From contig CAMDZD010000013.1 of assembly GCA_945910815.1 (NCBI GenBank), forward strand, positions 1 through 49,733: a stretch of 49,733 nucleotides of DNA. Direction: 5' to 3'. The notes under the pieces were generated by a model. It had not been told where the DNA came from, did not search any database, and saw only the letters and a list, made by a program, of their open reading frames with translations. Within the stretch, counting starts at the first letter, position 1; each line of letters opens with the position of its first letter. The DNA is from an uncultured Clostridia bacterium (lineage in GTDB: Bacteria > Bacillota > Clostridia > Oscillospirales > Ruminococcaceae). This document shows, piece by piece, positions 1-20,734 of the stretch. The position numbers and the translations under genes were made by a program.

Positions 1-40
1 CAGAGCTACTGCCAGATATTTCGGAATTTCAAAAAGCACT

Positions 41-55
41 GTACATAAAGATGTA
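41..55 (+). repeat. attL core (left copy of 15-bp direct repeat)
   Basis: GTACATAAAGATGTA, identical to 20555-20569. It contains a dyad, TACAT-AAAG-ATGTA, centred on the AA at 48-49, which fits the symmetric core with central dinucleotide used by serine recombinases. The bases either side differ between the two joints, so the shared block marks the crossover region. Confidence 0.85.
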
Positions 56-65
56 TCAAAAGGGA

Positions 66-94
66 ACGGAATCTTAAACAGATTCCGTTTTTTT
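66..94 (+). terminator. intrinsic terminator just inside the left end
   Basis: CGGAATCT (67-74) pairs with AGATTCCG (80-87) across a 5-base loop and is followed by T7 (88-94). It lies about 10 bp inside the element and would stop transcription entering from the truncated spoIIID, insulating the cargo from sporulation transcription. Confidence 0.75.
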
Positions 95-107
95 AATATG
101 CAAATTA

Positions 108-136
108 TTGATTATAAGAATAATTTATGATATACT
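108..136 (+). promoter_or_regulatory. sigma-A promoter for AAA/PD-(D/E)XK gene A
   Basis: TTGATT (108-113), 17-bp spacer, TATACT (131-136). The start codon follows about 37 bp downstream after GGAGG at 161-165. The same TTGATT-N17-TATAAT arrangement precedes paralog B. Confidence 0.65.
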
Positions 137-172
137 GAGATAATAAATATTGCAGGATACGGAGGAATAATA

Positions 173-1852: not shown

Positions 1853-1873
1853 ATAAGATTGTTTTTATATATA

Positions 1874-3217
1874 TCAGAACAAAATAAAGTCATCAAACGG
1901 GTAATTGCTTATAATAAATTCAATCGTTCCCCTGCCGTCAAAAGGAATTTCCTTGTAATAATATTTTTTGTTACCGCTTTTAAGACCAAATATTAAATTA
2001 TAATATCCTCTTAATTGATAGTCATCTATCAGAAAACATCCGTTAGTTTCTTTAACTTTTATATCACTGTCTTTTTCGCCTTTCAGACGGGTTCGGGTTT
2101 TGGTAAATCTTCCAAAGAGCATAAATATACTGTCATCGGGTATTTTCTTGCAGAAATTCACCATTTTGTCGTAATCTTCTTGCGTAAATTCTTCAACAGT
2201 GTTTGACTCTCTTTTATATCCGCTTGAGTCCAGATACGGAGGGTCTAACAGAAACAATGTTTTCTCAGAACGATGGGTATCTTTAAGAACATTCAGAGCA
2301 TTTCTCTTTGAAACGGAAATAATATTCAGAAAGACTGCCATTTTTGAGACGTTGTTTGCATATTCTGAAAATTTTGCAATCTGCAAATCAGCACTGCTGT
2401 ATTTCTTGTTAAGATTTTCTGTTTTATGCCTTACGCTTACTGCATCAAGATACATATGTTCCGCAGAAGCTTTATAATTCAAATAAGTTTTTGTTCTGTT
2501 CTTTCGTTTTTCTTTTACTGTTTCAAAGTTTTCATTTCCTGATTTTAATTCATCAATCAGTTTTCCGCAAACCTTTTCTGTTTTCTCACTGTTAGTCTTT
2601 ATGCAACGATATAAATTAATCAGATTATAATCTGAATCATAAGCATAATAATCAAGACTGCGGTCTGAAAGGGTTTGGAGAACATTCAGAGTTAAACCGC
2701 ACATTCCCATGAAAGGTTCAACTACTGTATTAATGGAAGAAGGGATTTGCTTTAAAACTTTTTCTATTTCAAACCTTAGTTTATGCTTGTTTCCCATCTG
2801 ATAGCAAACATAAGGAAATGAAGAAGGGTTTTCTGAAGAGATACCCAGTTTTTTATAAAATTCATTTTTGTATGTATAATAGAGGATTGCAACAGCCAGT
2901 AATATTTTAATAACGTCAGATTTATTTTTAACATTCCATTTTCCCATTAACTGTCTGATACGATTATCTGAGCTATTATCACATCTGAGCGAAAATACTG
3001 TATTTTTCTTTTCATCAGGATTTGATTTGCTTTTGTAATCATTATATATGCAGTTAATGAGTTTTTTGGATTCATCAAATGACATATCTCCCAGTTTTGT
3101 AATTATATCTTCTGGCAGTTTGGAAATAATATTTCCATATTTCAGGTCGTTTGTACCTTTTAAATCTGTAACTCTTGCTTTAAAGTAATCGTCCATACGA
3201 ATATTGTATTTGCCCAT
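1874..3217 (-). CDS. D12-class N6-adenine DNA methyltransferase (orphan)
   Basis: 447 residues on the minus strand. From about residue 139 it has the D12 (Dam/MboI-type, PF02086) layout: YQMGNKHKL, then SAM-binding motif I VEPFMGMCG (166-174) and catalytic motif IV DPPY (325-328) in LFLLDPPYLDSSGY. The first 130 residues are an extra domain I do not recognise. Start ATG at 3217 is preceded by AAGGAG nine bases upstream. No restriction endonuclease or specificity gene is adjacent, so it is an orphan methyltransferase, unless the flanking PD-(D/E)XK proteins are partners. It is convergent with copy A (22-bp gap). Its upstream region holds the AATCTCA repeat cluster, a candidate operator. Unlike its neighbours it contains no GGGGTA in either orientation. 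The target sequence cannot be predicted. Confidence 0.88.
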   Translation of the reverse strand: MGKYNIRMDDYFKARVTDLKGTNDLKYGNIISKLPEDIITKLGDMSFDESKKLINCIYNDYKSKSNPDEKKNTVFSLRCDNSSDNRIRQLMGKWNVKNKSDVIKILLAVAILYYTYKNEFYKKLGISSENPSSFPYVCYQMGNKHKLRFEIEKVLKQIPSSINTVVEPFMGMCGLTLNVLQTLSDRSLDYYAYDSDYNLINLYRCIKTNSEKTEKVCGKLIDELKSGNENFETVKEKRKNRTKTYLNYKASAEHMYLDAVSVRHKTENLNKKYSSADLQIAKFSEYANNVSKMAVFLNIISVSKRNALNVLKDTHRSEKTLFLLDPPYLDSSGYKRESNTVEEFTQEDYDKMVNFCKKIPDDSIFMLFGRFTKTRTRLKGEKDSDIKVKETNGCFLIDDYQLRGYYNLIFGLKSGNKKYYYKEIPFDGRGTIEFIISNYPFDDFILF

Positions 3218-3281
3218 AATTAAGTTACTCCTTTATAATAAAAGATTAGTTTTTTTTACATCAGATATAAATCTGAAGAAA

Positions 3282-3462
3282 AATCTCACAACCTGTATTT
3301 TTCATCTCAGGAAAAATCTCAGACGTAAAATAATCTCAGCATAGGATTTTTATATCTAAGATGTCTTTTTTTAAACTCAATTATAGTAAGATAATCTCAA
3401 GGATAAAGAAATTTACATGACAAAAGTTTTTTTCAATCTCAAGTGATATTTTTTTAATCTCA
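3282..3462. repeat. cluster of seven AATCTCA repeats upstream of the methyltransferase
   Basis: AATCTCA (TGAGATT on the minus strand) occurs exactly at 3282, 3315, 3332, 3393, 3435 and 3456, with the variant CATCTCA at 3303, all in one orientation. Several spacings are 21, 42 and 61 bp, close to whole helical turns. Position and form suggest binding sites for a regulator of the divergent promoter region, or replication-type iterons. No binding protein can be named. Confidence 0.6.
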
Positions 3463-4087: not shown

Positions 4088-4708
4088 ATGGAAAACAGAG
4101 TATATGGCTATGCGAGAGTTTCAAGCAAGGAGCAGAACGAAGACAGACAGCTTAATGCACTGCTTGATTTCGGGGTATCGAGAGAGAATATAATTACTGA
4201 CAAGGTATCAGGTAAGGACATCAACAGAACGGGGTATTTGTATCTTAAAAATTCACTTCTCCGAGATGGTGATACTCTCGTTATCAAGGAACTTGACAGG
4301 CTTAGCAGAAACAAGTCCGATATAAAGAAAGAGCTTGAATATTTCAAAGAACATAATATCCGTGTTAAAATACTGGATATTCCAACCACTCTTGCTGATT
4401 TCCCTGACGGTCAGCAATGGGTACTTGATATGATTAACAATATTCTTATTGAAGTTCTCGGAAGTATCGCAGAAGCTGAACGTATTAAGATAAAACAACG
4501 TCAGCGTGAGGGTATAAATTCCGCAAGAAAACGGGGTACTGTCAAATTCGGCAGACCAAAAGCAAATATACCTGATAACTGGTATAAAATACTTTCACAG
4601 GTTCATTCAGGTGAAATAAAATCCACAGATGCAATGAGAATACTTAATATGAAAAAATCAACATATTATAAACTGCGTAAGCTTTACCCTTTAAAATTAA
4701 ACAAGTAA
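4088..4708 (+). CDS. small serine recombinase (resolvase/invertase family)
   Basis: 206 residues. The N-terminal catalytic domain starts VYGYARVSSKEQN (Arg10, nucleophile Ser12), followed by LVIKELDRLSRNK and the long E helix region. The C-terminal 45 residues after GRPKANIP contain a Hin/resolvase-type HTH (DAMRILNMKKSTYYKLRKL). The length is typical of Tn3/Hin-type enzymes. AAGGAGG lies just ahead of the ATG. It acts on DNA as a tetramer at paired short sites; candidate sites lie in the palindrome-rich DNA upstream. It is distinct from the large recombinase at the other end and more likely maintains or inverts DNA inside the element, or is a remnant of a nested element. GGGGTA occurs at 4172, 4231 and 4533. 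Confidence 0.92.
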   Translation: MENRVYGYARVSSKEQNEDRQLNALLDFGVSRENIITDKVSGKDINRTGYLYLKNSLLRDGDTLVIKELDRLSRNKSDIKKELEYFKEHNIRVKILDIPTTLADFPDGQQWVLDMINNILIEVLGSIAEAERIKIKQRQREGINSARKRGTVKFGRPKANIPDNWYKILSQVHSGEIKSTDAMRILNMKKSTYYKLRKLYPLKLNK

Positions 4709-4831
4709 TTTAATTTTTAATTATAATAAAAATATACTTCGAGATTTTTTATTAACATAAGACTGATGATGAGATGATTAATATATAAATGAAGCAGGGG
4801 TACAGATATATTATAAGAATGATGATGTCAG

Positions 4832-5185
4832 TTATAAGTTATCAGATAACCGCTTTGCAAGACCGTTAAGATAGGCATTAAGAAGTTGCCTGTCAGACTT
4901 TGAAAGAGTTCTGTATGTTTCAATGAGATTGCGTTCATCGGAGTTAAGCATATCAGATGCGTTAATTATCGGGGTATCAGTATCAAAGAACTGAGAAAGA
5001 GTAATCTGAAAGCCGTTGCATATCTTTTCCAATGTGAATACGCTCGGTACAGTATTTCTTACAAAGATGTTGTTTAAAGATGAATATGCAAGTCCTGATT
5101 CCTTTGCAAGACGGTAAACAGTCCAGTTGCGTTCCTTTAAGAGCTGATACATTCTTTCTATAACATAATTTTGTTTTAATTCCAT
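4832..5185 (-). CDS. XRE-family HTH regulator
   Basis: 117 residues starting MELKQNYVIERM. This ATG is chosen because GAGGAG lies 10 bases upstream; the frame is open a further 11 codons without a better site. The N-terminal half is an HTH_3 domain: LKERNWTVYRLAKESGLAYSS then LNNIFVRNTVPSVFTLEKIC, ending in LSQFFD. The C-terminal part (SDERNLIETYRTLSKSDRQLL) is a common tail in clostridial XRE repressors. It is divergent from AAA/PD-(D/E)XK gene B, whose promoter lies in the shared spacer, so it could control that gene or itself. A + strand GGGGTATC at 4971 lies antisense inside this gene, showing the motif is not tied to coding direction. Confidence 0.88.
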   Translation of the reverse strand: MELKQNYVIERMYQLLKERNWTVYRLAKESGLAYSSLNNIFVRNTVPSVFTLEKICNGFQITLSQFFDTDTPIINASDMLNSDERNLIETYRTLSKSDRQLLNAYLNGLAKRLSDNL

Positions 5186-5358
5186 AGCATAAATACTCCT
5201 CAATTTAATATATTTCAATAATAATATTCTAAGTTAATTTCAGATAATAATACAGATGTAAAGTTGAGTCATATTTTTTGATATATATTAATTTTCAATT
5301 GAACATTATTAATAAGATGTACTGTTTAATTAAAGACGGTGCATCTTTTTATTTTCGG

Positions 5359-5387: not shown

Positions 5388-5419
5388 AATTATAAGTTAA
5401 ATAATCAGGGAGGGGTATT

Positions 5420-7093
5420 ATGAATTACAAACCGATACCAATAGGAGTTGAGAATTTCAAGGATATAATAGACAAGGGGTATTATTACGTTGACAAAACC
5501 CTGTTTATCAAAGATATACTGGATAACAAAAGCTATGTAAATCTCTATACACGTCCAAGAAGATTCGGTAAAACGCTTAATATAAGTATGCTTCAGTATT
5601 ACTTTGAGAAATCAGATGAGGATACTTCATATTTATTTGACGGTCTTAATATTTCAGAGCAAGGTGAAAAATACAAGAGGTATCAAGGGCAGTATCCTGT
5701 TATAAGCATATCGCTGAAAAGTATGAAACAAGAAACATTTGAGCTTTCCTTAAATGAGTTCAAAAAGATAATTTCAAATGAATTTCGCAGACACAGAATT
5801 ATTCTTGACTCTGATAAAATATTTAATGCTGATAAAGACGAATTTCTAAAGATATGTAATCGTTGCGGAGATTATTCAACATATAATACGGCTCTTAAAC
5901 TGCTTTCAGACTGCCTTTTTGAGTTTTATAACAAAAAGGTAATAATCCTTATAGATGAGTATGATGTATTACTTGAAAGTGCGTATTTCAGAGGGTATTA
6001 TTATGAAATGGTAAATCTGATTCGTTCGGTATTTGAGAGTGCATTAAAGACTAATAATTCGCTTGAATTTGGGGTATTGACCGGCTGTCTGAGAATTTCA
6101 AAGGAGAGTATATTTACTGGTCTTAATAATCTGGCAGTTTATTCTGTCACTGATAATTTATTTTCTGAATATTTCGGGTTTACTGAATCAGAAGTCAAGC
6201 AATTTGCTGATTACTATGGATTATCAGAATATTTTAAAGATTTGAAAACGTGGTATGATGGTTACAGATTCGGCAACACCGAAATTTATAATCCGTGGAG
6301 TATTCTGAATTATATTCATTTTACAAAGGGTAATACAAATAACGTTTTAAAATCATACTGGAGTAATACAAGCTCTAATGATATTATCCATAAGCTTATT
6401 ACTGAGGGCGATGAGGATATAAAAGATACTGTTGAAAACCTTGTAAACGGGGGTATGATTTCAAAGCCTTTGTATGAAGATATTACTTACAGAAATATAA
6501 ATGTAAATTCAGATTATATATGGAGTTTTCTGCTGTACACGGGGTATCTTAAGGCTGTCCGCATCTATTTATCCGGAAATACTCTGTACGCCGATATGGT
6601 CATTCCTAACAGAGAAGTAACAAGTATTTATGAAAATACGATTATGCAGTGGTTTAATGAGAAAATCGTTTCAACTTCAAGAGATGAGCTTTTCAATGCC
6701 GTAATAAGCGGAAATACATTGCAGTTTGAGGAGATATTACTTGACTGGCTTGAGGATACTATAAGCTACTATGATACAAAGGAAAATTATTATCACGGAT
6801 TTCTGGCGGGTTTACTGTCGGGATTTAAGGGGTATAAAACGGAGTCAAACCGTGAGAACGGTATCGGCAGAAGTGATATAATCTTACTGGAACAGAGACG
6901 TCACAAGCTTGCTGTTATTATCGAAATAAAAGTTGCCGATGAGTTCTCGCAGTTAAGTCAGAAATGCGATGATGCTTTAATGCAGATTGAAGAAAAACAG
7001 TATGATATGCAGTTAAAAAGAGACTGCTATCAGCAGATTATCAAATATGGGGTAGCTTTCTATAAAAAGTCCTGTATGATTAAAAAGACTTGA
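5420..7093 (+). CDS. AAA-ATPase-like / PD-(D/E)XK nuclease-superfamily protein (copy B)
   Basis: 557 residues, clearly paralogous to 173-1852 over its whole length. RPRRFGKTL is the canonical Walker A-like motif here, followed by VIILIDEYD (Walker B), WYDGYRFGNTEIYNPWS, and a C-terminal nuclease-like domain with GRSD and VIIEIK. Asp replaces nothing critical: the D...EIK spacing matches copy A. It has its own promoter and is divergent from the XRE gene. Two paralogs in one element suggest duplication; a third, broken copy lies at 8322-8394. GGGGTA occurs at 5412, 5476, 6071, 6450, 6541, 6829 and 7049. Three of these positions are not GGGGTA in copy A although the protein aligns. Function unknown. 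Confidence 0.9.
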   Translation: MNYKPIPIGVENFKDIIDKGYYYVDKTLFIKDILDNKSYVNLYTRPRRFGKTLNISMLQYYFEKSDEDTSYLFDGLNISEQGEKYKRYQGQYPVISISLKSMKQETFELSLNEFKKIISNEFRRHRIILDSDKIFNADKDEFLKICNRCGDYSTYNTALKLLSDCLFEFYNKKVIILIDEYDVLLESAYFRGYYYEMVNLIRSVFESALKTNNSLEFGVLTGCLRISKESIFTGLNNLAVYSVTDNLFSEYFGFTESEVKQFADYYGLSEYFKDLKTWYDGYRFGNTEIYNPWSILNYIHFTKGNTNNVLKSYWSNTSSNDIIHKLITEGDEDIKDTVENLVNGGMISKPLYEDITYRNINVNSDYIWSFLLYTGYLKAVRIYLSGNTLYADMVIPNREVTSIYENTIMQWFNEKIVSTSRDELFNAVISGNTLQFEEILLDWLEDTISYYDTKENYYHGFLAGLLSGFKGYKTESNRENGIGRSDIILLEQRRHKLAVIIEIKVADEFSQLSQKCDDALMQIEEKQYDMQLKRDCYQQIIKYGVAFYKKSCMIKKT

Positions 7094-7698: not shown

Positions 7699-8325
7699 AT
7701 GGCATTGGAAAACAAATTAGGTATAGAGGATTCAGCAGAACTTGCAAGGGTTGAGGAGAGAATAAGCAAGGCAAAGGCAGTTGATTTATTTGAAAGAGGT
7801 ATACTTGATAATCTTATGGCAGGCAGTTTTAAGACTTTATCTGTAATACACGAGTATCTGTTCAGTGATGTATACAAGTTTGCAGGTTTGATTCGTAAAG
7901 TTAATATTGCAAAGGGTAATTTCAGATTTGCACCAGTTATGTATCTTGGGGTATCTATTGAGAATATAGAAAAAATGCCACAGTCCACATTTGATGAGAT
8001 AATAGAAAAGTACGTTGAAATGAATATAGCACACCCATTCAAAGAGGGAAACGGCAGAAGTATGAGAATATGGCTTGACCACATATTAAAGAAAGAACTG
8101 AAAATGGTTATAGACTGGAGCAAGGTTGACAAGGAAGATTATCTGCTTGCAATGGAACGTAGTCCGATAAAAGATATTGAAATCAAGTATCTGCTTAAAA
8201 AAGCTTTGACAGACAAGATAAATGACCGTGAGATTTATATGAAAGGTATTGATACAAGTTACTATTATGAGGGGTATTCAGTTTATAAGGCAAGCGAGAT
8301 AAAGGAACAAGAAGAAATATACTGA
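7699..8325 (+). CDS. Fic-domain protein (class III-like, self-inhibited AMPylase)
   Basis: 208 residues. The Fic catalytic loop HPFKEGNGRSMR (112-123) matches HPFx(D/E)GNGRxxR with every key residue, so nucleotide transfer to protein targets is expected. Near the C-terminus SYYYEG (187-192) matches the inhibitory helix motif (S/T)xxxE(G/N), placing it with class III Fic proteins that hold their own brake rather than a separate antitoxin. Upstream residues (FAGLIRKVNIAKGNFRFAP) are the usual beta-flap region. It has its own promoter. Its stop codon overlaps the edge of a relic of the AAA/PD-(D/E)XK gene, so this gene appears to sit between two copies of that gene's 3' end. GGGGTA occurs at 7948 and 8271. 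Confidence 0.92.
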   Translation: MALENKLGIEDSAELARVEERISKAKAVDLFERGILDNLMAGSFKTLSVIHEYLFSDVYKFAGLIRKVNIAKGNFRFAPVMYLGVSIENIEKMPQSTFDEIIEKYVEMNIAHPFKEGNGRSMRIWLDHILKKELKMVIDWSKVDKEDYLLAMERSPIKDIEIKYLLKKALTDKINDREIYMKGIDTSYYYEGYSVYKASEIKEQEEIY

Positions 8326-8512: not shown

Positions 8513-8836
8513 ATGAAAACCAATTCAATATCAGATTCAGATGTCAAGTTAATTTATTTCCGTACATATGATGATTTCAGTTACAGTATCGGCGGAGATT
8601 TTAACGTTAAGGTTTCGGGAGACGGTAAAAAATTTACTGATTTTTATCTTGAAAAACGGGGTATCGTCAAAAAGGCTGTAACCATAAATCAGCCTGCACT
8701 TTCAGTTTTCAGATATTTATCACCTGATGTATTTATAGGTATGATTTCGGGGTATCTGATTTCATTATATAACAGCAACTCTTTTGAGAAATTCGCTGAT
8801 ATAGGGGAACTTTTAGAAAAATCAGTCAATAATTGA
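8513..8836 (+). CDS. hypothetical protein, 107 aa
   Basis: I do not recognise this protein. It is a soluble, mixed alpha/beta sequence beginning MKTNSISDSDVKLIYFRTYDD with no signal peptide or membrane segment. Residues 20-35 (FSYSIGGDFNVKVSGDGKK) look like a beta hairpin; the C-terminal third is helical. A strong GGAGG lies 7 bases before the ATG, and a promoter plus hairpin leader precede it. A degenerate copy of the leader (not the ORF) exists at about 7120-7175. It stands alone between the Fic gene and the LRR operon. Two GGGGTATC motifs occur (8658, 8749), in different reading phases. Confidence 0.65.
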   Translation: MKTNSISDSDVKLIYFRTYDDFSYSIGGDFNVKVSGDGKKFTDFYLEKRGIVKKAVTINQPALSVFRYLSPDVFIGMISGYLISLYNSNSFEKFADIGELLEKSVNN

Positions 8837-10437: not shown

Positions 10438-10445
10438 GGTGAGAT

Positions 10446-12857
10446 ATGAAAAATAAAAGGTTACTGGCAACTGCCTTAACTGTTATATTTTCTTTGAATG
10501 GGGTATTATACGGTTGTGATTCATCAGAATCACAAAGCAGTTCCGATTCTGAAAATAATTCTGTAAGTCAGAGCGTTTCCGCAAAAACACCGGAGGATAA
10601 AAAGCTGACCCTTTCATCAGATAATCTTTCCAAAAATGATAAGGTTTACTATAATTATCTTATTGAACAGAAATTCTGCAATCTTAGAAAGGATTTCAGA
10701 ATAATTGAGGCGGGAGCTGTCAAAAACAGTCCGAACGGTCTTGCGGGTGCGGTAAAGTTCGATTTTGACGAAGACGGTACAGACGAGCTTGTTGTATTTA
10801 CATTTGACAGAAACAATAACAACGGTGAAGATATTCGCATTGATTTGCTTAAACCTGAGGGTGACAGCCTTAAATTAACTGACAGCAAATATCTTACTGA
10901 AATTCTTGATATGGATATTATTTCCGACACAGGCACGAATTTGACAGATAATTCCATATATTTCACCAAAAATATGAGTATGCAGATTGTTACATCGGAA
11001 TATCAGAACAAGCTTTATTTCGGCAGTCTGCTTACTTATGAAAACCTCGAAAGAGATGGTATTGATACATCTTCATATATAAAAACTTTCAACGTTTTCG
11101 GGGTAGAGGATAATAAAATTGTTCCATATTCAATAGGTGCATTTGATATAGAAAAGGACTTTTACAGAGCCGACCCGACAAAAGAGGGATTATTATACGC
11201 CAGAACACTTCCGCCGTCTATCAGAGATTCGGCAACATTTTCAGAATGTACAGTTTCCCCCGATTCCGATGAATCATATAAAAAGAGGGCGGAGCAGTTA
11301 GCCGAAGATGTAAATAACATTACAACATCTCAGAATAAATATAATATGTTCACCTTAATGCAGGCTCATCTTGAGGGCAATTATAAGGTTACAGGCGGTA
11401 TGTATTCATCTCTTGCATCGGCATTTTCAGCAATGCTTAACGAATTTGGTCTTGATATTGAATATATTCAGCCTTATATAGGTTCAGAAAGCAATACAGG
11501 ATTTTCAGCAAGTTTTGTTTCAAAAAATCAGTCCGAAATGAAAGAAATATTAAGGCTTGAGGCTATCAAGGATTATGACGGATATTATTCTGCAAACAGA
11601 TATATTCTTGATTCAGACATTGAAACAATTCTCGGAGATGATGCCGTATTTACAGAATCCTTTGCGAATGAAACAGAACTTTACACTGATATTTTCAAAT
11701 ATCCGTATTACTACCGTAATATATGGGACAGCTTTGTAAATTCCTGTGAAGAAACATGTTATTTTATTGCTGATATAAATCAGGACAGCAAGAAAGAACT
11801 TGTAATTATCGGTCAGGAGGGTGAAACTGTTTCTTCTGTTTCTGTTATCAAATCAGACCTTACAATTATCAATGCCGAAACTGACGGAGATGAAATCAGT
11901 TTTTATGATAATGGCTTAATCTGTGTTTGTCAGCATTATTCAGACAGCTATAATTATATAGATACTAACAGCGGAGATATATTTAACGGTGACGAGGCTA
12001 AAAAGAAAATTTCTGAAATTTCAGCAAATGCCATTTTCCCAGAAATGAACAGCTATAATATTCGTTACAGTGATACTCTGAACAATCTTAATATAATTGA
12101 AAACACAGAAGATATTAAAAAAGAATGGCAGGAAGCTTATATTTACGCAATAGATGATTTTTCAAATCACTTCTCAGCCGACTTTTCAAAAGATGAACTG
12201 TCTTATAAGTTGATTTATATCGATGGCGATGATATTCCTGAACTTTATATTTCAAATACAATTTACGGCGAGAGTCTGTTATATACATATTTCAACGGAA
12301 AAGCTACAATTATTTCAGAATCTTTTTCACCAAGAGATAACTCTTTCGGTGGATATATGGAAAAAAGCGGAATGTTTTTAACTCATTCAAGTGGCGGTGC
12401 ATCTAACCATATAGAAACAATTCACAAGATTTCAAACGGATTTTCTGAACCCGCTGAAACTCTGATTTACGACGAAAATGATAAAACTTCTATATACAAA
12501 TTAAACGATGAAGGTATTTCCAAAGAAGAATATGACAAAAAATCCGAAGATAATCAGAAGTATTTCAAGAGCGAAAATGTTTCCTATACATATGACGAAA
12601 TACTTAAGATTTTCAACGGAGAAACAGTTGAAAAAACTCCGGAAGTTCCACAGGAAAATATTTCATCTGAATCAGATACGGCAACTGTTAAAGCCGGAGG
12701 CGGTCTTAATATGCGTTCAGGTGCAGGAAAGGAATTTGACAAAGTTACTCTTATTCCCGATGGTGCAGAAGTTGAAGTCCTTGAAAGACAGTCTGAATGG
12801 TCTAAGGTCAGATATGCAGATTTTACAGGTTGGGTAAATAACAATTACCTGAAATAA
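10446..12857 (+). CDS. lipoprotein with Asp-rich repeats and C-terminal SH3b domain
   Basis: 803 residues. The signal peptide ends in a lipobox (LYGC, Cys24) followed by a Ser-rich tether, so it is anchored outside the membrane. The body contains three FG-GAP/VCBS-like acidic strands: FDFDEDGTDELVVF (about 105), DINQDSKKELVII (about 440) and YIDGDDIPELYIS (about 595). The last 60 residues (AGGGLNMRSGAGKEF...GWVNNNYL) are a bacterial SH3b domain, which usually binds peptidoglycan. The gene follows the LRR-dockerin gene by 8 bp and precedes a HipA-like kinase by 24 bp, so the three are probably one operon. Exact role unknown. GGGGTA at 10500 and 11100. Confidence 0.85.
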   Translation: MKNKRLLATALTVIFSLNGVLYGCDSSESQSSSDSENNSVSQSVSAKTPEDKKLTLSSDNLSKNDKVYYNYLIEQKFCNLRKDFRIIEAGAVKNSPNGLAGAVKFDFDEDGTDELVVFTFDRNNNNGEDIRIDLLKPEGDSLKLTDSKYLTEILDMDIISDTGTNLTDNSIYFTKNMSMQIVTSEYQNKLYFGSLLTYENLERDGIDTSSYIKTFNVFGVEDNKIVPYSIGAFDIEKDFYRADPTKEGLLYARTLPPSIRDSATFSECTVSPDSDESYKKRAEQLAEDVNNITTSQNKYNMFTLMQAHLEGNYKVTGGMYSSLASAFSAMLNEFGLDIEYIQPYIGSESNTGFSASFVSKNQSEMKEILRLEAIKDYDGYYSANRYILDSDIETILGDDAVFTESFANETELYTDIFKYPYYYRNIWDSFVNSCEETCYFIADINQDSKKELVIIGQEGETVSSVSVIKSDLTIINAETDGDEISFYDNGLICVCQHYSDSYNYIDTNSGDIFNGDEAKKKISEISANAIFPEMNSYNIRYSDTLNNLNIIENTEDIKKEWQEAYIYAIDDFSNHFSADFSKDELSYKLIYIDGDDIPELYISNTIYGESLLYTYFNGKATIISESFSPRDNSFGGYMEKSGMFLTHSSGGASNHIETIHKISNGFSEPAETLIYDENDKTSIYKLNDEGISKEEYDKKSEDNQKYFKSENVSYTYDEILKIFNGETVEKTPEVPQENISSESDTATVKAGGGLNMRSGAGKEFDKVTLIPDGAEVEVLERQSEWSKVRYADFTGWVNNNYLK

Positions 12858-12881: not shown

Positions 12882-13991
12882 GTGAAGTTTTACATAATGA
12901 ATTTTGATACCGAAATAGCTTCATTTGAAACGAGAACCTCTAATCTCGGTGAAACTAAAGTATTCAATGAAAAATGTTCAGTAAAAGATACGAATTTGTT
13001 GTTAGGTACTGACCTGAAAAAATGGATTTACAACAGAAGTCCATTCAATAAGAGAGCTGAAATTGATAAGCTATTGGCAATACTGGGCATAAGAAACATA
13101 GAAAGGTATTTCGCAGTAACATACGGATTGTCTTTAAATGATGCCTTGTGGGTAAAGCCGGAAGAACATAGAAGATTAAAGTGGAGTTCTGTAAATTTAT
13201 ACAACAATCCTTTTAATGAGCAGATTGCAAGATTTTCTTTTGAGGGTAATGGTTCTGTAAAGAAAAGCACTTCTCCCGAATTTGATACTGATGGTGCGTT
13301 ACCTAAATGTTGGAAGAGAGTTAACGGCAATATTTACTTGTATAAGGGTGGCAGTACAGGTGCGGGAAATAGTGGCAGAGAGCCTTTCAGCGAGGCATAT
13401 GCTACACAGTTATTGCGAGCTATGGGTATTGAGTCAAGTTTTTATGTACCTTATGATTGTATTAAGTATCACGGCAAGTATGCAAGCAGATGTAAATTAT
13501 TTACCAGTGAAAATATTGGTTTCAGAAGTCAGTCTGAAGTGTTTTATGTAGATTCTTTTGAGGATTTATTGAACTGGCAATTGAATAGCAGATTTTCTGA
13601 CACTTTCAGATTGATGTATGTCTTTGATGCTTTGATTCTTAATGAAGACCGACACTTAGGAAATTATGGGTATCTGATTGATAACAGTACGGGCAATATT
13701 ACAGGTGTAGCACCTTTGTTTGATAATGGTTTAGGTTGCCTGTCTTATTTCTTCAGTAATGAAACAGGGGTATCTTTAGTTAGAGAATTTGATAACTATA
13801 TGGATACAAGATTAATGTCATCAGGTGCAGATTTTGTTGATGTAGCGAAGTATTGTCTGACCTCTGAATTGCGTTCTTGCTTATTGAATTTAAACGGGTT
13901 TAAGTTTAAGCCTGTTTCAGGAGATTACGAAAACAGAGCTATGTTTTTAGACAGAATGTTAAGCAGACAGATACAAAAATTAATATTTTAA
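12882..13991 (+). CDS. HipA-like protein kinase (copy 1)
   Basis: 369 residues starting at GTG 12882 with GGGAGGAG upstream. The kinase layout is visible: Gly-rich loop LYKGGSTG (153-160), conserved Glu in GREPFSE, catalytic loop LNEDRHLGN (Asp256) and metal-binding APLFDNG (Asp281). This is the HipA_C-type fold (Ser/Thr kinase, toxin of HipBA systems), but the N-terminal half does not look like HipA and there is no HipB-type XRE gene next to it. Related stand-alone proteins are common in clostridial mobile DNA. It is the last gene of the LRR-lipoprotein operon, and paralogous to 16340-17437 (shared YFxxTYGLSLxDxLWVKP and STSPEF.TDG.LPKCW). Substrate unknown. GGGGTATC at 13767. Confidence 0.85.
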   Translation: MKFYIMNFDTEIASFETRTSNLGETKVFNEKCSVKDTNLLLGTDLKKWIYNRSPFNKRAEIDKLLAILGIRNIERYFAVTYGLSLNDALWVKPEEHRRLKWSSVNLYNNPFNEQIARFSFEGNGSVKKSTSPEFDTDGALPKCWKRVNGNIYLYKGGSTGAGNSGREPFSEAYATQLLRAMGIESSFYVPYDCIKYHGKYASRCKLFTSENIGFRSQSEVFYVDSFEDLLNWQLNSRFSDTFRLMYVFDALILNEDRHLGNYGYLIDNSTGNITGVAPLFDNGLGCLSYFFSNETGVSLVREFDNYMDTRLMSSGADFVDVAKYCLTSELRSCLLNLNGFKFKPVSGDYENRAMFLDRMLSRQIQKLIF

Positions 13992-14216: not shown

Positions 14217-15767
14217 ATGGATTTCAGAATTGAGTACAATGATAATGCAGATATAACCAAGACTGGGGTAGCGGACGTATACACAGATGAAAGTCTGAGA
14301 TTATTAATCAATTCGAGTGGGGTAATGAGTTTAAGAAGTCGTGATTTTGTTAAGGGTGTAGTTAGCTATGCGAGAAACAAGGATAACAGGGTAGTAGGAA
14401 TATCAGGTTTAAGAGGTACTGGAAAGACGACAGGATTTTTACAGGCGATATACAAACTGGGGTATAATAAGTGTGCGTATATGGTAATAAATCCGGATAC
14501 AGATGTAACTTGCAGGGATATATACAATTTAGTGATGGGAGAATTATCGTCTTACAGATATATATTTATAGATGAGATAACGAGAGTAAAGGATTTTATA
14601 TTGCAGTCATCAATATTATATGATAGCATAATACTACCCACCAATAAGAAGATATTTATAGGTGGTACAGAGTCATTGAGTTTAGTTATGAGTTACAGAA
14701 AAGGTTTATATCACAGAATGGTATTAACGAGTGTAACATTTATAAATTATGGTGAGGCTAAGCGTACAACTGGGGTATCATTGCAGGAGTATATCAGAAT
14801 TGGTGGTTTATACAAGGCGGATATTTTTTCTGACATAAATGGGTTATATAATTATGTCAGAACATCTGTACTTGATAATATAGTTGGTACTATGAGGAGA
14901 AATGCGGATATAATACCGATTTTATCAGGGGTATCTGATTCCAAATTGATGAGGGTGATATTTATGGTATTATACACTGTTACATTTTCGAATTTGAGAT
15001 ATTCTTTAAACCTAAAGCGAATGATAGATTTATTTGATTTGAGAGGTAGCTTATATTCTTTCATTGACGTAGATGATTTAATAAAGAGGCGTTTTGGAAT
15101 AGCGGATAAAGACCTGATAAGTGACGGGGAATTTTCAGCTGTATTGCAGATATTAATGCAGATAGGTTTGGTAATCAGATTAGAAAACATATGCAAAGCG
15201 GGGGAATATGAGTATTTTATAGTAAATCAGTGTATGACGAATGTATTATTGAGAGATTTAGCGAAGGTAATACAGGAGAGCATTTCAGATAATACACAAT
15301 TAGCCGATGATGATAATTTAAATTCTTATATATTGAGGTCATCGGTGGTAGCACACGCATTGCAGTTAGCAAGTAAGAGGGGTATCGGGGTATATTTTTA
15401 CAGAGATACGGACGGCAGAGAGATAGACTTAGTTTTTGAGTTGGAGTCATATGATGATTTTGATGATATGGCACTAAGATATTATCTTTACGAAATAAAA
15501 ATGACAGGTAATATAGATACAGCTATAACAGAGACAAAGTGGTTGAATGATAATAAGGTAACATCTTATTTTTCAAGTAGGGGTGAGATAGTTAATAAAA
15601 GCATAATATACGGTGGTAAGCGTAGTATTTTTAATAGTTTTACATCAACATCGGGTATTTATGGAGATAAAGGTAGGTCATTAGCTGACATAGAGAAACT
15701 AAATCGGGGTACTACACTTGAGTCTGCGAGTGATTTTCTGATAAATATGTATAAGTATATAAAATAG
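14217..15767 (+). CDS. AAA-family ATPase with DUF4143-type C-terminus
   Basis: 516 residues. Walker A GLRGTGKTT (63-71) and Walker B YRYIFIDEITR (about 112-122) belong to the AAA_14 domain. The C-terminal half ends in a restriction-nuclease-like DUF4143 segment (GIGVYFYRDTDGREIDLVFE...YLYEIKMTG), with D...E.K residues reminiscent of PD-(D/E)XK. The start is supported by GAGG nine bases upstream. Function of the family is unknown; a role in mobile-DNA conflict is possible. It is the richest gene in the polar motif: GGGGTA at 14265, 14319, 14459, 14772, 14928, 15379, 15387 and 15706, plus 15767 at the stop. Codon use (many GTA, ATA, GGT) differs from the chromosomal genes to the right. Confidence 0.85.
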   Translation: MDFRIEYNDNADITKTGVADVYTDESLRLLINSSGVMSLRSRDFVKGVVSYARNKDNRVVGISGLRGTGKTTGFLQAIYKLGYNKCAYMVINPDTDVTCRDIYNLVMGELSSYRYIFIDEITRVKDFILQSSILYDSIILPTNKKIFIGGTESLSLVMSYRKGLYHRMVLTSVTFINYGEAKRTTGVSLQEYIRIGGLYKADIFSDINGLYNYVRTSVLDNIVGTMRRNADIIPILSGVSDSKLMRVIFMVLYTVTFSNLRYSLNLKRMIDLFDLRGSLYSFIDVDDLIKRRFGIADKDLISDGEFSAVLQILMQIGLVIRLENICKAGEYEYFIVNQCMTNVLLRDLAKVIQESISDNTQLADDDNLNSYILRSSVVAHALQLASKRGIGVYFYRDTDGREIDLVFELESYDDFDDMALRYYLYEIKMTGNIDTAITETKWLNDNKVTSYFSSRGEIVNKSIIYGGKRSIFNSFTSTSGIYGDKGRSLADIEKLNRGTTLESASDFLINMYKYIK

Positions 15768-15773
15768 GGGTAT

Positions 15774-16309: not shown

Positions 16310-16339
16310 ATGAAATTCAGAGGAGTTATGATTTTTAAT

Positions 16340-17437
16340 ATGAAAAAGTATTTTATTATGAATAAAGACAAGCCTTTGCTTGAATATGCCTATACTTTGA
16401 AAGACGGATTTTTAAGACCGGTAATTATTGACGGAGATATTCCTCTCCCCTATCAGAAATTTAATTTATCAAGTTTTCTTGACAGCAGAAGTATAGCCAA
16501 GAAACGCAATGAAATAAGACGTATACTCAAATCTATGAATTTGAAAACCCAAAAGGATATTTTAGATGTTACATATGGTTTATCGTTAACTGATACTTTA
16601 TGGGTAAAGCCTGCTGATTCTGTATTGAAGTGGTCTGACATAAATCTTTATGAGAATGATTTTGATGAAACAATAGGCAAGCTGTCTATTCTGGGCGAGA
16701 AAATGATTTCGGGATTTAAGACAACATCTCCCGAATTTGGTACTGACGGAATGTTGCCTAAATGTTGGGTACGCAGGACGGACGGCATATATATGCTTAA
16801 AGGCGGAACAAGCGGAAGCACTTCTATGGGCAGAGAACCAGTTACCGAAGAACTCGCATATCAGCTTGAAAAGGCTCTTGACATAAACTGCGTATCTTAC
16901 AAAACAGAGATTTATCACGGCAAGACAGTATCCTGCTGTAAGCTTATGACAGATACAAATAGGGGTATCACACCGCTTTATGCGTTAAGCACTGTACAGA
17001 ATTTCTATGATTTAATTGATACAGGCAAGAAATACGGAATAGAGAAAGATTTAAAAACTATGCTGTCATTTGATATTCTGACAGGTAATAATGACCGTCA
17101 TCAAGGCAATATACAGCTGATGTTTGATAATGATACATTTGAAATACAAGGCTTATCCCCTGTTTTTGATAATGGTCAGGCTTTGTGCAATCGTATTCCT
17201 GAGATAAAGTTTGAAAATATGCAGGAACAGTTTTACAGACGATACCCTGCTTTGTATGATGATTTTTATGATTATTATGATTCAATTGTATCGGAGGAGT
17301 TTTATTGCAAGCTCAGGAGTATTCAGGATTTTGAATTTACTGATAACGGATTTTTATCAGATAATGAGTTATGCGAATATAACAAGTTCATACAATGGAG
17401 AATAAAAGATATGATTTTAAGATATGAGAATATCTGA
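16340..17437 (+). CDS. HipA-like protein kinase (copy 2)
   Basis: 365 residues from the ATG at 16340, chosen because MKKYFIMN aligns with MKFYIMN of copy 1; in-frame ATGs at 16310 and 16328 also exist, and AGGAG at 16321-16325 is 14 bases from the chosen start, so the start is uncertain. Kinase residues are intact: MLKGGTSG loop (about 152), GREPVTE, NNDRHQGN (Asp252) and SPVFDNG (Asp277). It shares with copy 1 the motif LPKCW before the glycine loop. No antitoxin gene is adjacent. It stands alone after a 540-bp spacer and ends before a strong terminator. Likely a Ser/Thr kinase of unknown target. GGGGTATC at 16962. Confidence 0.83.
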   Translation: MKKYFIMNKDKPLLEYAYTLKDGFLRPVIIDGDIPLPYQKFNLSSFLDSRSIAKKRNEIRRILKSMNLKTQKDILDVTYGLSLTDTLWVKPADSVLKWSDINLYENDFDETIGKLSILGEKMISGFKTTSPEFGTDGMLPKCWVRRTDGIYMLKGGTSGSTSMGREPVTEELAYQLEKALDINCVSYKTEIYHGKTVSCCKLMTDTNRGITPLYALSTVQNFYDLIDTGKKYGIEKDLKTMLSFDILTGNNDRHQGNIQLMFDNDTFEIQGLSPVFDNGQALCNRIPEIKFENMQEQFYRRYPALYDDFYDYYDSIVSEEFYCKLRSIQDFEFTDNGFLSDNELCEYNKFIQWRIKDMILRYENI

Positions 17438-17482
17438 TATACAAAAAGAACGGACGTTAATTTATAAATAAATACACATATT

Positions 17483-17526
17483 AAAAGCCGTTTGAGTTGA
17501 AAATGCAACTCAAACGGCTTTTTTTC
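17483..17526. terminator. strong bidirectional terminator
   Basis: AAAAGCCGTTTGAGTTG (17483-17499) pairs with CAACTCAAACGGCTTTT (17506-17522), flanked by A4 and T7. It lies between the convergent kinase and GGDEF genes and can serve both. Confidence 0.9.
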
Positions 17527-17555
17527 TTTGCGAAAAAATACGATAAAACGTAATA

Positions 17556-18626
17556 TTATGAAACCATTTTTTTATATTTTTGCTTATTTTTATACATTTC
17601 AGCATCAGCTCTGGCACATAAGCTGTCAAAATTCTCTCCGTTTGCATAAGCAACACCCATAGCACAAGTATAAGGTGTTTGTCCTATTTCCGTACGAATA
17701 TTCTCCAGTAATTTTTCTACAGATTTCTGCCTGATTCTGATACACAATATCATAAATTCATCACCGCCGGTTCGGTAGAGGAGACAGCCTTTCGGAACAA
17801 CTTTATCAATAACATTTACAATTGCACAGATAGCTTCGTCACCCTTTGCGTGACCGTAGGTATCATTTATCTTTTTCAGGTTGTTCAGGTCAATGGAAAC
17901 AACAGCAGTGATAACATCTTTATACTTTTCGGAATCGATATAGAAACAATGACGGTTAAGAGCGTTTGTCAGAGGGTCTCGCTTGAAACTTTCAACGCTG
18001 AAAAACATATAATAGAAAACAATAGAAAGTGAATATGCATTTCTGCTTGAACCGTACATTCCGAGAAATGATTCCATAAACATCGCTAAAATATTCACGG
18101 TTACAATGAGAAATATGATAAGCCCCTCAGAATAGTCTCTGTGGCAGAATCGGCTTACTGTCAGCATAAGCAACAATAACATATAAATAATGCATACAAA
18201 ATGTGTGATGTAACCTAATGAACCTCTCACAAATTCATTTTTGTCATTGTATGTATAAACAATGTCTGTGAAAAATGCAGAAAATGCAGCCATAGCATTT
18301 ATAATCATAGGAACAAGTATCAGAAATTTAAACTTACGGCTTGTATTATCGTTTCGAAGTGAAAGCTTTACAAATATATATATTATAACCGGACGGACAG
18401 AATATCCCAACGCACAGAAAAAAATGCAAAGATTTGGGGAACTGCCTTTTTCTACTGATTTGATTTCAGCACAATATGTTATCATTTCAATCACAGTTAT
18501 AATCAGACTCAATCCGAATGTTCTGTTTATTTTTTTCTGAAAAATCGAGTTAATCATCAGAAATACTGACATAAAAACAAGTATAATCAATGCAGGAAAA
18601 TTCAGTTCAACAAACCATCTAATCAT
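17556..18626 (-). CDS. membrane-bound GGDEF diguanylate cyclase
   Basis: About 356 residues from ATG 18626 (AAGGGG eight bases upstream; a GTG at 18635 is also in frame). The first ~200 residues form roughly seven membrane helices, a likely sensor. The C-terminal domain has DPLTNALNR, SIDLNNLKKINDTYGH and the active-site loop RTGGDEFMIL, so c-di-GMP synthesis is expected. The inhibitory RxxD site five residues before GGDEF is absent (PKGC there). It lacks GGGGTA in either orientation, unlike most element genes. It has a housekeeping promoter and diverges from the recombination module. c-di-GMP controls motility, adhesion and sporulation in clostridia, so the cargo may influence the host's sporulation decision (inference). 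Confidence 0.9.
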   Translation of the reverse strand: MIRWFVELNFPALIILVFMSVFLMINSIFQKKINRTFGLSLIITVIEMITYCAEIKSVEKGSSPNLCIFFCALGYSVRPVIIYIFVKLSLRNDNTSRKFKFLILVPMIINAMAAFSAFFTDIVYTYNDKNEFVRGSLGYITHFVCIIYMLLLLMLTVSRFCHRDYSEGLIIFLIVTVNILAMFMESFLGMYGSSRNAYSLSIVFYYMFFSVESFKRDPLTNALNRHCFYIDSEKYKDVITAVVSIDLNNLKKINDTYGHAKGDEAICAIVNVIDKVVPKGCLLYRTGGDEFMILCIRIRQKSVEKLLENIRTEIGQTPYTCAMGVAYANGENFDSLCARADAEMYKNKQKYKKMVS

Positions 18627-18674
18627 CTGCACCACCCCTTTTTAAGTATGTTTTTATAAGGTGATTTTTATTAT

Positions 18675-18703
18675 ATTATATCACATTATTTATGTTTTGT
18701 CAA
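18675..18703 (-). promoter_or_regulatory. sigma-A promoter for the GGDEF gene
   Basis: On the minus strand TTGACA (18703-18698), 17-bp spacer, TATAAT (18680-18675). A perfect housekeeping match, in contrast to the differently built promoter of the divergent recombination module. Confidence 0.8.
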
Positions 18704-18793
18704 TTCTCCGTCAGTTTAATTTCATGAAAACGGCATTTCTGATTCTGTCAAAAATTATTTAATAAACAGCGATATTAAGACAAGTATAATATT

Positions 18794-18822
18794 TCATATC
18801 AGACAAATAAAATTCATATTAT
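18794..18822 (+). promoter_or_regulatory. candidate sigma-E (mother-cell) promoter for the recombination module
   Basis: TCATATC (18794-18800), 14-bp spacer, CATATTAT (18815-18822), against the sigma-E consensus KMATATT-N14/15-CATACAHT: 6 of 7 and 6 of 8 matches with correct spacing. A second overlapping match is TCATATT (18814-18820), 13 bp, GATATTAT (18834-18841). I see no good TTGACA/TATAAT pair in this spacer on the + strand. AT-rich DNA gives chance matches, so this is suggestive only. Confidence 0.45.
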
Positions 18823-18872
18823 TAAACGTAAAAGATATTATTCTATGTGAGTAAGGAAAGGAGAATGTTATT

Positions 18873-19019
18873 ATGAATACATATTACTTTAACAGCAATT
18901 CAAGTTCTGAAAAAGAAAATCTGATTAAAAAACTGGAAACGATAATATCAGATTCAATAACAAGACAGATTAACGCTGTAAATAACAATTTTGTTAAAGC
19001 AGAAAAACATATTACTTAA
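18873..19019 (+). CDS. small protein (48 aa) upstream of the large recombinase
   Basis: ATG 18873 follows AAAGGAG (18857-18863) nine bases upstream, a strong site. The product starts MNTYYFNSNSSSEKENLIKK and is mostly helical and charged, rich in Asn, Ser and Lys (LETIISDSITRQINAVNNNF). The stop at 19017 is 22 bp before the recombinase ATG, so the two are co-transcribed. Recombination directionality factors of serine integrases are often tiny, and SPbeta's SprB (58 aa) is needed for sporulation-time excision. Size and position suggest this role here, without sequence proof. Confidence 0.6.
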   Translation: MNTYYFNSNSSSEKENLIKKLETIISDSITRQINAVNNNFVKAEKHIT

Positions 19020-19041
19020 AATTCAGGGAGGTAAAAAATCA

Positions 19042-20529
19042 ATGTCAAATTCAACAAATGTTGTCGCATACTGCCGTGTGTCTACCAATAAGGAAGACCA
19101 GATAAATTCTTTGAATGCACAGAAAACATTCTTTGATAACTATGCAAAAAATAATAATCTTAATCTTATCAAAATTTATGCCGATGAAGGCATAACAGGA
19201 ACATCACGCAAGAAACGTGACAGCTTTAACGAGATGATGAAAGACAGCGAAAAAAATGTCTTTTCAACCATTCTTGTTAAGGACTTTTCAAGATTCGCAA
19301 GAAATACTGTTGACTTTCTGGAATGTATACGCAAGCTTAAAAAACGTAATATCGATGTTGTTTTTATCAACACAGGTATGCACTCGCTTACAACCGATGA
19401 ATTTGCAATGACTATGCTTGCATCAATAGCACAGAAAGAATCTGAGAATATTTCAAGCCGTATTAAATTTGGAAAGAGAATCAGTGCCGAAAACGGCAGA
19501 GTTCCTAATTTATGTTATGGCTATATCAAGAAAAACGGTAATTCTTTTGATTTGGATATTAATCCCGCTGAGTCAGAAATAGTAAGAGAGATTTTTGATA
19601 TGTATGTCAATCAGGGGTACGGCTCTCACAAGATTTCAAAAATTCTTAACAGCAGAGGTCTGACAAGTTTAAGGAATGTTAAATGGTCAGCAACGGCAAT
19701 CAGCAGAATTTTGAAAAACAAGCTGTATGCAGGATATGTAATAAACGGGAAAAGCGAAGTCACGGATTTAATCGAAAGAGTCCGTACAAAAAAAGATGAA
19801 AGTGAATGGATTGAGACAGAACGTCCTGATTTGCAGATTGTTCCTCTGGAAATGTGGGAAAAAGCTCAGAATATCAGCAAGCTTAACAATACCAGATTAA
19901 AAAAAAACCTTCATAAAAAAAACAGTAGCAAGCACCTTTTCAGTACACTGATTACTTGTTCGGTATGCGGTTATTCATTCAGACAGAGTAAGCGAAAAAA
20001 TAAAGACGATACAAGAATTATATGGTTGTGCAGTGGTCGTAATCATCACGGTGCGAAATATTGCAATAACAAGACAATTATTCCCGAAGATGAGCTTATC
20101 AAAAATATTGACAGCTATTTTCTTTCAATAATAAGTGATAAGCAAAAGTTTATTGACAGTATCGTCAGCAAGTATGAAAGCAGACAGCAGAAAAATCCAA
20201 TGCGTGAACTTTCGGAAAATCTTGAAAAACTTCAGATAAAAAAGCAGAAACAGATAATGATGTTTGAGAACAGCATTATTACTATTGATGAACTTAAAGA
20301 ACGTGTTAAAAATATTGACAATGCTATTGCTAATATCAGGCTTGAACTTGACAGCACAGAAAATCTGAAAAGCATTGAAGAAAGGTCACGCAAGCTTTAC
20401 AATATGCTTTCAAAAAATTTCAGCAAATATGTATCGGTTGCAAATATGACAAACGCTGAAATCAAAACGCTTATAAAATTCATCACTGCTGACGAAAACG
20501 GCAATATTCATATAGAAATGAATTATTGA
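19042..20529 (+). CDS. large serine recombinase (SpoIVCA/phage-integrase type)
   Basis: 495 residues from ATG 19042, chosen because GGGAGGT (19026-19032) is nine bases upstream; the frame is open 17 codons further with no such site. The catalytic domain begins VVAYCRVSTNKEDQ (Ser14 nucleophile), followed by DEGITGTSRKKRDSF and KDFSRFARN. The Recombinase domain (about 155-260) contains GYGSHKISKILNSRG. A zinc ribbon follows with ITCSVCGYSF and CSGRNHHGAKYC, then a coiled coil (about 400-470). Length and layout match SpoIVCA (500 aa), which removes the sigK skin element. It ends 25 bp from the right repeat, so it is the integrase/excisionase of this element acting at GTACATAAAGATGTA. GGGGTA at 19614. 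Confidence 0.95.
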   Translation: MSNSTNVVAYCRVSTNKEDQINSLNAQKTFFDNYAKNNNLNLIKIYADEGITGTSRKKRDSFNEMMKDSEKNVFSTILVKDFSRFARNTVDFLECIRKLKKRNIDVVFINTGMHSLTTDEFAMTMLASIAQKESENISSRIKFGKRISAENGRVPNLCYGYIKKNGNSFDLDINPAESEIVREIFDMYVNQGYGSHKISKILNSRGLTSLRNVKWSATAISRILKNKLYAGYVINGKSEVTDLIERVRTKKDESEWIETERPDLQIVPLEMWEKAQNISKLNNTRLKKNLHKKNSSKHLFSTLITCSVCGYSFRQSKRKNKDDTRIIWLCSGRNHHGAKYCNNKTIIPEDELIKNIDSYFLSIISDKQKFIDSIVSKYESRQQKNPMRELSENLEKLQIKKQKQIMMFENSIITIDELKERVKNIDNAIANIRLELDSTENLKSIEERSRKLYNMLSKNFSKYVSVANMTNAEIKTLIKFITADENGNIHIEMNY

Positions 20530-20551
20530 AAATTCGTTCTCAAATTGCACG

Positions 20552-20734
20552 ACCGTACATAAAGATGTAAGCGAAAGACTTCCCGAAATAAACAAGCAAC
20601 TTGCAAGGGAAGTAAAAAGCATACTTGAAATAAATAAAAAGGAACGCCATATCCGTGGCGGTATGGCTACTAAAATGAAATATCAGCGTATTGCCGAAGA
20701 ACTTAAAAAACGCAAATCACAGCATGCTTTCTGA
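20552..20734 (+). pseudogene. spoIIID: spoIIID, 3' portion (interrupted)
   Basis: Reads TVHKDVSERLPEINKQLAR, EVKSILEINKKERHIRGG and MATKMKYQRIAEELKKRKSQHAF before TGA at 20732. This closely follows the B. subtilis SpoIIID pattern (ERLPEINPDL, EVKEIL, RHLRGGEATKLKYK). There is no start codon or ribosome site of its own. After loss of 41-54 to 20554 the codons join the 5' half in phase, giving at least 72 visible residues plus the N-terminus outside the window. The frame shows no decay, which argues for a recent insertion or for continued use by excision. Confidence 0.92.
20555..20569 (+). repeat. attR core (right copy of 15-bp direct repeat)
   Basis: GTACATAAAGATGTA, identical to 41-55. In the rejoined host site the core would be flanked by TATTTCGG (17-24) and CCGAAATA (20583-20590), an inverted pair typical of integrase attachment arms, though these bases also encode conserved SpoIIID residues. 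Confidence 0.85.

Follow-up and report, generated by a model that had tools for sequence, protein, structure and literature searches.

Introduction

Programmed excision of DNA during sporulation has been described for sigK, gerE, spsM and spoVFB, and yabG has been found to harbour an intervening element (PMC10747680, PMC6957869, PMC5595907; what we say of published systems, here and below, follows extracts of the papers cited). The gin element of gerE measures 28.6 kb and carries three serine recombinases and no phage-related genes (PMC5595907), and the yin element of yabG is prophage-like, with integrated and circular forms found together in culture (PMC10747680). Excision of skin, the element in sigK, involves the regulator SpoIIID: in C. 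difficile it is under the control of sigma-E and SpoIIID, exerted through CD1234 (PMC5025042), and in B. subtilis the sigK recombinase gene is activated by SpoIIID (PMC517825). Here we analyse a stretch of 49,733 nucleotides (the window; contig CAMDZD010000013.1, C13 in our numbering) from a Ruminococcus-like, uncultured Clostridia bacterium of the Ruminococcaceae (assembly GCA_945910815.1; genome handle G000), in which spoIIID itself is split by a 20,514-bp element. An element in spoIIID was reported in none of the titles and abstract starts of the open literature searched, a scope outside which subscription papers and preprints fall. Our best reading, made from sequence, is that the locus represents a new family among the elements that interrupt sporulation genes, one directed at spoIIID, and we predict that its members are excised in the mother cell.

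A spoIIID gene in two halves

The end of the spoIIID 5' half lies at window positions 2–55 (+ strand) and encodes residues RATARYFGISKSTVHKDV, and the 3' half, at 20552–20734 (+), encodes TVHKDVSERLPEINKQL through the stop codon; both were read directly. A sequence-only reading of the window had proposed a skin-like element inside spoIIID, and a 20,514-bp element (41–20554) does stand between two halves of one gene. Both pieces were located where that reading had put them, except that the window holds only the tail of the N-terminal half: the gene start, comprising the first 123 bp, is on another contig (C12:57322–57444). As integrated, spoIIID encodes its helix-turn-helix half with a short foreign extension, and the 3' half lacks a start of its own.

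The 15-bp sequence GTACATAAAGATGTA occurs at 41–55 (attL, +; we infer a crossover at the CA in 44–45) and again at 20555–20569 (attR, +), with identical codon phase at both. Elsewhere in the 2.54-Mb, 78-contig assembly, allowing up to one mismatch, it was found only at the end of C12, a position identical with the start of the window. Joining the halves yields a 95-aa protein without a stop (LNNTDEHRPV...SQHAF) that scores 119.3 bits against NCBIfam TIGR02844, above the equivalog cut-off of 111.5, whereas the integrated N-terminal form (46.6 bits) and the C-terminal half (78.6 bits) both fall under it. When aligned to SpoIIID, as had been proposed, the joined protein matches the solved structure 2l0k over residues 6–81. 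Uninterrupted genes occur in close relatives: the two nearest in the genus (G090 and G110) are 87% and 85% identical, and among uninterrupted proteins of the protein collection, identity to the joined form reaches 97% (P0140, 95 aa) and is 96% for P0142. Two findings that could have spoken against a rebuilt gene did not turn up, in that no second intact spoIIID was detected above the Pfam cut-off in this genome, and relatives carry both halves as one gene. It is very likely that precise rebuilding of spoIIID is possible.

The element encodes a large serine recombinase at 18991–20529 (+; the likelier start is the ATG at 19042) with Resolvase, Recombinase and zinc-ribbon domains. Its stop lies 25 bp from the right joint, in agreement with the earlier placement.

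Recurrence at one codon across species

Our searches covered one genome per species, with 125 genomes of the genus and 396 of the family (>=85% complete), and the joined protein was matched in 114 and 356 of them, respectively. Both halves were present at the same site in nine genus genomes (G000, G006, G031, G053, G073, G079, G092, G113 and G115), with the architecture on a single contig in G006, G053, G073 and G079; G114 and G116 showed the N-terminal half only, followed by an element arm. Among 27 family genomes flagged by eye and re-examined, 17 had both halves at the site (11 of these on a single contig), three had both halves with a blurred N-terminal hit, four had the C-terminal half only and three were set aside. 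The family count is a lower bound, since G144, G245, G257 and G407 were the only genomes with a single weak match to be re-examined. Both halves also lie in one locus of a Clostridiaceae metagenome-assembled genome (MAG; L120). Altogether, one and the same His codon is the site of the split in the nine genus genomes, 17 further family genomes and one Clostridiaceae MAG, and this recurrence in other species excludes a chance origin of the split. The recurrent, site-specific interruption of spoIIID by a family of mobile elements with their own recombinase is real.

Some matches were treated separately. More than one N-terminal hit was found in each of G227 and G420, and the N-terminal hits of G285 and G405 contain a stop, yet the frame is open once joined. 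Three genomes in which these hits continue past the site with stops (G226, G308 and G376) were tallied apart. We set aside G098, whose hit reads through STVHKDVSERL to a contig end, G243, with adjacent overlapping pieces, and G242 and G301, which have an intact gene and additional pieces.

Two genomes combine an intact gene with parts of an element. In G005 (L058/L059), an intact spoIIID lies beside an element that ends in a second C-terminal half, the copies being 95% identical over 212 bp; this looks like a gene repaired by an acquired 3' half, with the element left stranded. In G051 (L060), an altered N-terminal half and an element arm lie ~7 kb upstream of the intact spoIIID; the altered half looks like an element remnant, and no recombinase of the clade described below was found in that genome.

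Attachment sites across 22 pairs

We joined 22 pairs of halves (nine from the genus, 12 from the family, and L120); the counted family genomes G151, G227, G255, G321 and G461 were left unjoined. All 22 joined frames are open and have STVHKD restored. The run of bases shared by both joints varies from 2 to 15, and only the CA of the His codon is common to all 22. The 15-bp identity named in the earlier reading is peculiar to this genome.

When combined, the element-side arms form an inverted repeat with its centre at that CA: pairing is seen at 409 of the 616 positions, whereas 2000 rounds of shuffling the arms gave 175 ± 10.7 with a maximum of 216, and the host-side arms gave 197. Arms separated by ~5 to ~125 kb thus remain matching halves of a single site. 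Among the 22 pairs of arms, the weakest (14/28) are those of this genome itself, P' at 45–72 (+) and P at 20531–20558 (+), the two halves of an attP inverted repeat with centre C*A. The window carries att sites at both joints, seen in the 15-bp repeat and in the rebuilt attP inverted repeat.

The recombinase clade

Seven relatives of the window recombinase within the genus are 56–66% identical to it. A member of this distinct clade is encoded no more than 3 kb from a spoIIID half in 9 of the 14 genus genomes examined (it is absent there in G031, G051, G098, G114 and G116), in 13 of the 14 family genomes fetched, at L119, L120 and L121, and in 6 of 10 previously unexamined genomes. In G385, where the spoIIID halves are ~125 kb apart with the recombinase within (C3:595313–720931), it sits inside the element, 36 kb from the C-terminal half. 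A clade profile search gave 80 named loci, some of which coincide with genomes under G handles. The nearest 14 (42–67% identical) are all from MAGs and 12 of them adjoin a spoIIID half; the exceptions are L112 and L122, whose contigs measure 4 and 6 kb. Of the other 66 loci, only L163 has a SpoIIID match nearby, and it is an intact gene.

A short upstream ORF and a sigma-E-like promoter

Directly upstream of the recombinase, all 11 Ruminococcus loci (G000, G079, G053, G115, G092, G073, G006, G005, L112, L113 and L122) have an open reading frame (ORF) of 48–68 aa, counted from a conserved start; in the window it has 48 aa and lies at 18873–19019 (+). A similar ORF of 42–64 aa with an (N/D)PN motif was seen at 11 of 16 further loci. 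Six examples compared with Pfam and one compared with PHROGs gave nothing above cut-off, and 5.8 billion proteins contained 18 relatives of the Ruminococcus form and 131 of the other form. One related protein cluster, P0024, bears a source name that starts with 'Bitta', probably Bittarella, and may point to a cultured carrier. In position and size the short ORF recalls known factors, and we regard it as a candidate recombination directionality factor. The smallest element, that of G333 (L232; ~5.4 kb), has by its listed open frames a single long ORF in addition to the short ORF and the recombinase.

Sigma-E promoters have a consensus at the level of individual letters. Upstream of the short ORF, TCATAT(C/T)-N14-CATANTAT recurs at 9 of the 11 Ruminococcus loci, with differing spacers; its expectation over 11 loci is 0.0004 in resampled sequence, a contrast that is inflated by the relatedness of the loci. 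In the window, this putative promoter reads TCATATC-N14-CATATTAT at 18794–18822 (+), the one match to TCATATN15CATANTAT over both strands. For comparison, in the sigma-E promoters of C. difficile the –35 contains ATA and the –10 resembles that of sigma-K (PMC3789822).

A contig break at the core

Contig C12 (57,444 bp) ends on the last base of GTACATAAAGATGTA, and its final 55 bases are the first 55 of the window. Among the 40 ends of the 20 largest contigs, 55-base overlaps of this kind occur in two pairs, C12/C13 and C4/C18, so that a comparable break exists in the same assembly; C2/C20 share their terminal 55 bases, and C11/C17, of low complexity, overlap by 54. These lengths are as expected from a graph assembly with k = 55, in which a second path onward should have existed at any contig end whose 55-mer does not occur elsewhere. 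The break coincides, to the base, with the point at which an integrated allele would separate from an excised one, which suggests that element-free DNA was present in the sample.

Sporulation genes of the host genome

The spoIVA gene of this genome is intact, and a full-length, sigE-like sigma factor is present, which from its score and its neighbour we take to be sigE. The sigK gene is itself split by a second serine-recombinase element (C12:1256–1600 and C8:8227–10306; loci L069 and L070), with the N-terminal half at C12:1256–1600 and the C-terminal half at C8:9929–10291. The latter adjoins another serine recombinase, and by eye GTATAGAAAA is common to the joint and CATAATAT lies upstream of sigK. 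Upstream of the sigK recombinase we saw no sigma-E-like match and no ORF to be taken for a directionality factor. Six relatives with a split spoIIID (G006, G031, G053, G073, G092 and G115) have a full-length match at the level of sigK (about 270–290 bits), so the double split is not the rule; in G079 and G113 the best match has a lower, sigE-like score.

Proposed mechanism

We give a probability of roughly three in four to the reading that the element interrupts spoIIID at an invariant His codon and is precisely excised in the sporulating mother cell by its own recombinase and a predicted small directionality factor, with the gene rebuilt. In the integrated state, the element lies between the attL and attR halves, as the window sequence shows. 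Sigma-E would then activate the conserved TCATATY-N14-CATANTAT promoter and with it the expression of the short ORF and recombinase, crossover at the CA dinucleotide would release a circle, and the rejoined junction would give a complete 95-aa SpoIIID. If SpoIIID is made only in sporulating mother cells, which die, the forespore line would retain the element; a mother-cell timing of excision is likely. The gate known at sigK elsewhere would be moved one step earlier, and the spoIIID and sigK joints of this genome may act in series.

More tentatively, two serial excisions could take place in one mother cell, with sigma-E leading to loss of the spoIIID element, SpoIIID leading to loss of the sigK element and sigma-K appearing only afterwards, and a dedicated recombinase family would have turned spoIIID into a developmental DNA switch that recurs in many Clostridia. 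This extension is motivated by the role of SpoIIID in sigK excision in B. subtilis and C. difficile, and we rate it at somewhat less than an even chance.

Weighing programmed excision

Programmed excision is supported by purifying selection, the paired att arms, the conserved short ORF and the sigma-E-like promoter; indications of horizontal mobility and the failure of the promoter calibration count against it. With regard to selection, split spoIIID appears about as constrained as the intact gene: median omega is 0.048 for split-intact pairs (25 of 261 pairs with synonymous divergence, dS, <1.5) and 0.037 for intact-intact pairs (65 of 406), and G000 compared with G090 gives a nonsynonymous divergence (dN) of 0.024 and a dS of 0.504, although pairwise omega includes the time before insertion.

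That reservation is the first of several points that weigh against our reading. The promoter motif was found in none of 29 intact spoIIID upstream regions, nor at the spoIIID or spoIVA of this genome; since this calibration failed, the assignment rests on conservation among the elements and on the sigma-E consensus. The spoIIID genes mostly share just a CATATAYAT-like box, and a relaxed ATA-N15/17-CATA pattern occurs in 5 of the 29 upstream regions against a background of 6–7%. Within Ruminococcus, the motif is degenerate in G073, and in G053 its –35 looks weaker by eye; beyond Ruminococcus, 3 of 11 upstream regions (G285, G333 and L120) show a less strict ATA-CATA pair. The short ORF was not seen, under our filter, at 5 of the 16 family-level loci (G421, G414, G439, G321 and G420), and no clade recombinase lies by the split in G226, G227, G257, G461, G031, G114 and G116. 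The contig break fits excision or strain mixture alike, and the assembly branch could be a strain mixture given that every one of the 14 named clade loci comes from a MAG. Finally, recombinase identity does not follow SpoIIID identity (Spearman 0.11, p 0.17, 19 loci), and recombinases 84–92% identical occur in different genera (G240, G285, G414 and G439), from which it follows that the elements are transferred among hosts and are not necessarily domesticated.

The same mobility would suit an opportunistic element for which spoIIID, a gene required only in a terminal cell, is a safe harbour, with random or stress-driven excision and carriers that sporulate only via cells that have lost it. This explanation would also account for the varied cargo of mobile-element type, for half-to-half distances that span ~5.4 kb (G333) to ~125 kb (G385), and for the element retained next to an intact gene in G005. 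We nonetheless consider it unlikely, because in Ruminococcus the short ORF and recombinase are conserved together with a sigma-E-like promoter, and because split genes are constrained like intact ones, with none of the 22 joined genes decayed.

It is also conceivable that the insertion is dead, so that spoIIID is disrupted in lineages that have lost or are losing sporulation. Neither integrated half reaches the SpoIIID model, excision is here only predicted, and sigK of this genome is split too. We find this quite improbable in view of the 22 of 22 joined frames that are open with conserved residues, an omega of ~0.05, the intact pairing of the attP arms, the intact spoIVA and sigE-like genes, and the repeated hits on one codon in many genera. 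An assembly artefact, in which wrongly joined contigs would have put unrelated DNA in the middle of the gene, is scarcely credible: although the N-terminal half is on another contig and the join relies on a 55-base overlap, the same architecture stands on single contigs in four genus genomes and 11 family genomes, and the genus cases point to different projects.

Cargo and identity of the element

Just within the element, a hairpin at 65–96 is terminator-like on the – strand by scan, and by eye shows a stem and then a T run on the + strand. Hairpins that precede T runs come after attL in several relatives, and spoIIID transcription may stop at this one while the element is integrated.

The cargo begins with an AAA-ATPase-like/PD-(D/E)XK protein (173–1852, +) and a Dam/type-II-like DNA methyltransferase (1874–3217, –), the latter assigned below the NCBIfam cut-off and without a Pfam match. 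A second AAA-ATPase-like/PD-(D/E)XK protein (5420–7093, +) is followed by a Fic/DOC-family protein (7699–8325, +; PADLOC candidate PDC-S04), a 107-aa ORF with no Pfam, PHROGs or PADLOC match (8513–8836, +), a BspA-type leucine-rich repeat protein (8995–10437, +) and a protein with a C-terminal SH3 domain (10446–12857, +). Two HipA-like proteins, both below the Pfam cut-off (12882–13991 and 16310–17437, +), flank an AAA_14 ATPase with DUF4143 below cut-off (14217–15767, +), and a GGDEF protein (17556–18635, –) completes the cargo. Between the two AAA-ATPase-like genes, the segment 4088–5218 holds a small serine recombinase of invertase/resolvase type (4088–4708, +) and, convergent with it, a Cro/C1-type helix-turn-helix regulator (4832–5218, –); inverted repeats revealed no clear invertible segment around the small recombinase gene.

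Scans of the cargo with PADLOC, PHROGs and Pfam left our reading unchanged. We considered a prophage, and found no phage structural or packaging genes with Pfam in 14 element ORFs or with PHROGs in nine of these and the short ORF. An integrative conjugative element was also considered; Pfam gave no relaxase or conjugation genes in the 14 ORFs, other ORFs of <100 aa not being searched. Nor is the element skin proper, since its target is spoIIID and sigK is split separately with another recombinase. A known virus is not supported as the source: among viral contigs the recombinase had 12 matching loci, at 24–33% identity, and the circle junction had none.

Comparison with known systems

The gene split here is a regulator that stands upstream of sigK in B. 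subtilis and C. difficile, and it is split in more than 20 species, of which those with names are uncultured MAGs. Should excision be confirmed, it would place a DNA-rearrangement gate earlier in sporulation than any we found described, and genome annotation could miss spoIIID in such bacteria. The 22 matched attL/attR pairs, many with recombinases and candidate directionality factors, form a natural series.

SPbeta in spsM (SprA/SprB) would be similar in that its precise excision in sporulation rebuilds a gene (PMC4191935) and in its att/int/directionality-factor units (PMC6957869); it differs as an active phage, the present element being without phage structural genes among the ORFs searched. 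The yin element in yabG of C. botulinum likewise carries a recombinase and a putative directionality factor, but it has another target and a putative sigma-K promoter, and its authors call it unique (PMC10747680). Like our element, gin in gerE of B. cereus ATCC 10987 (GirC/GirX) splits a small regulator gene (PMC5595907); its target is a different one, and the present family occurs in many species.

A further parallel is skin in sigK (SpoIVCA in B. subtilis; CD1231/CD1234 in C. difficile), which shares the in-frame split of a mother-cell regulator and a large serine recombinase (SpoIVCA and CD1231 being likened to that of the window by type); its small directionality factor, in C. difficile under sigma-E and SpoIIID (PMC5025042), would correspond to our candidate. 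The present candidate factor is distinct in lying directly upstream of the recombinase and in having no Pfam match above cut-off. Another difference is the target, spoIIID, which is itself the regulator that acts in skin excision there.

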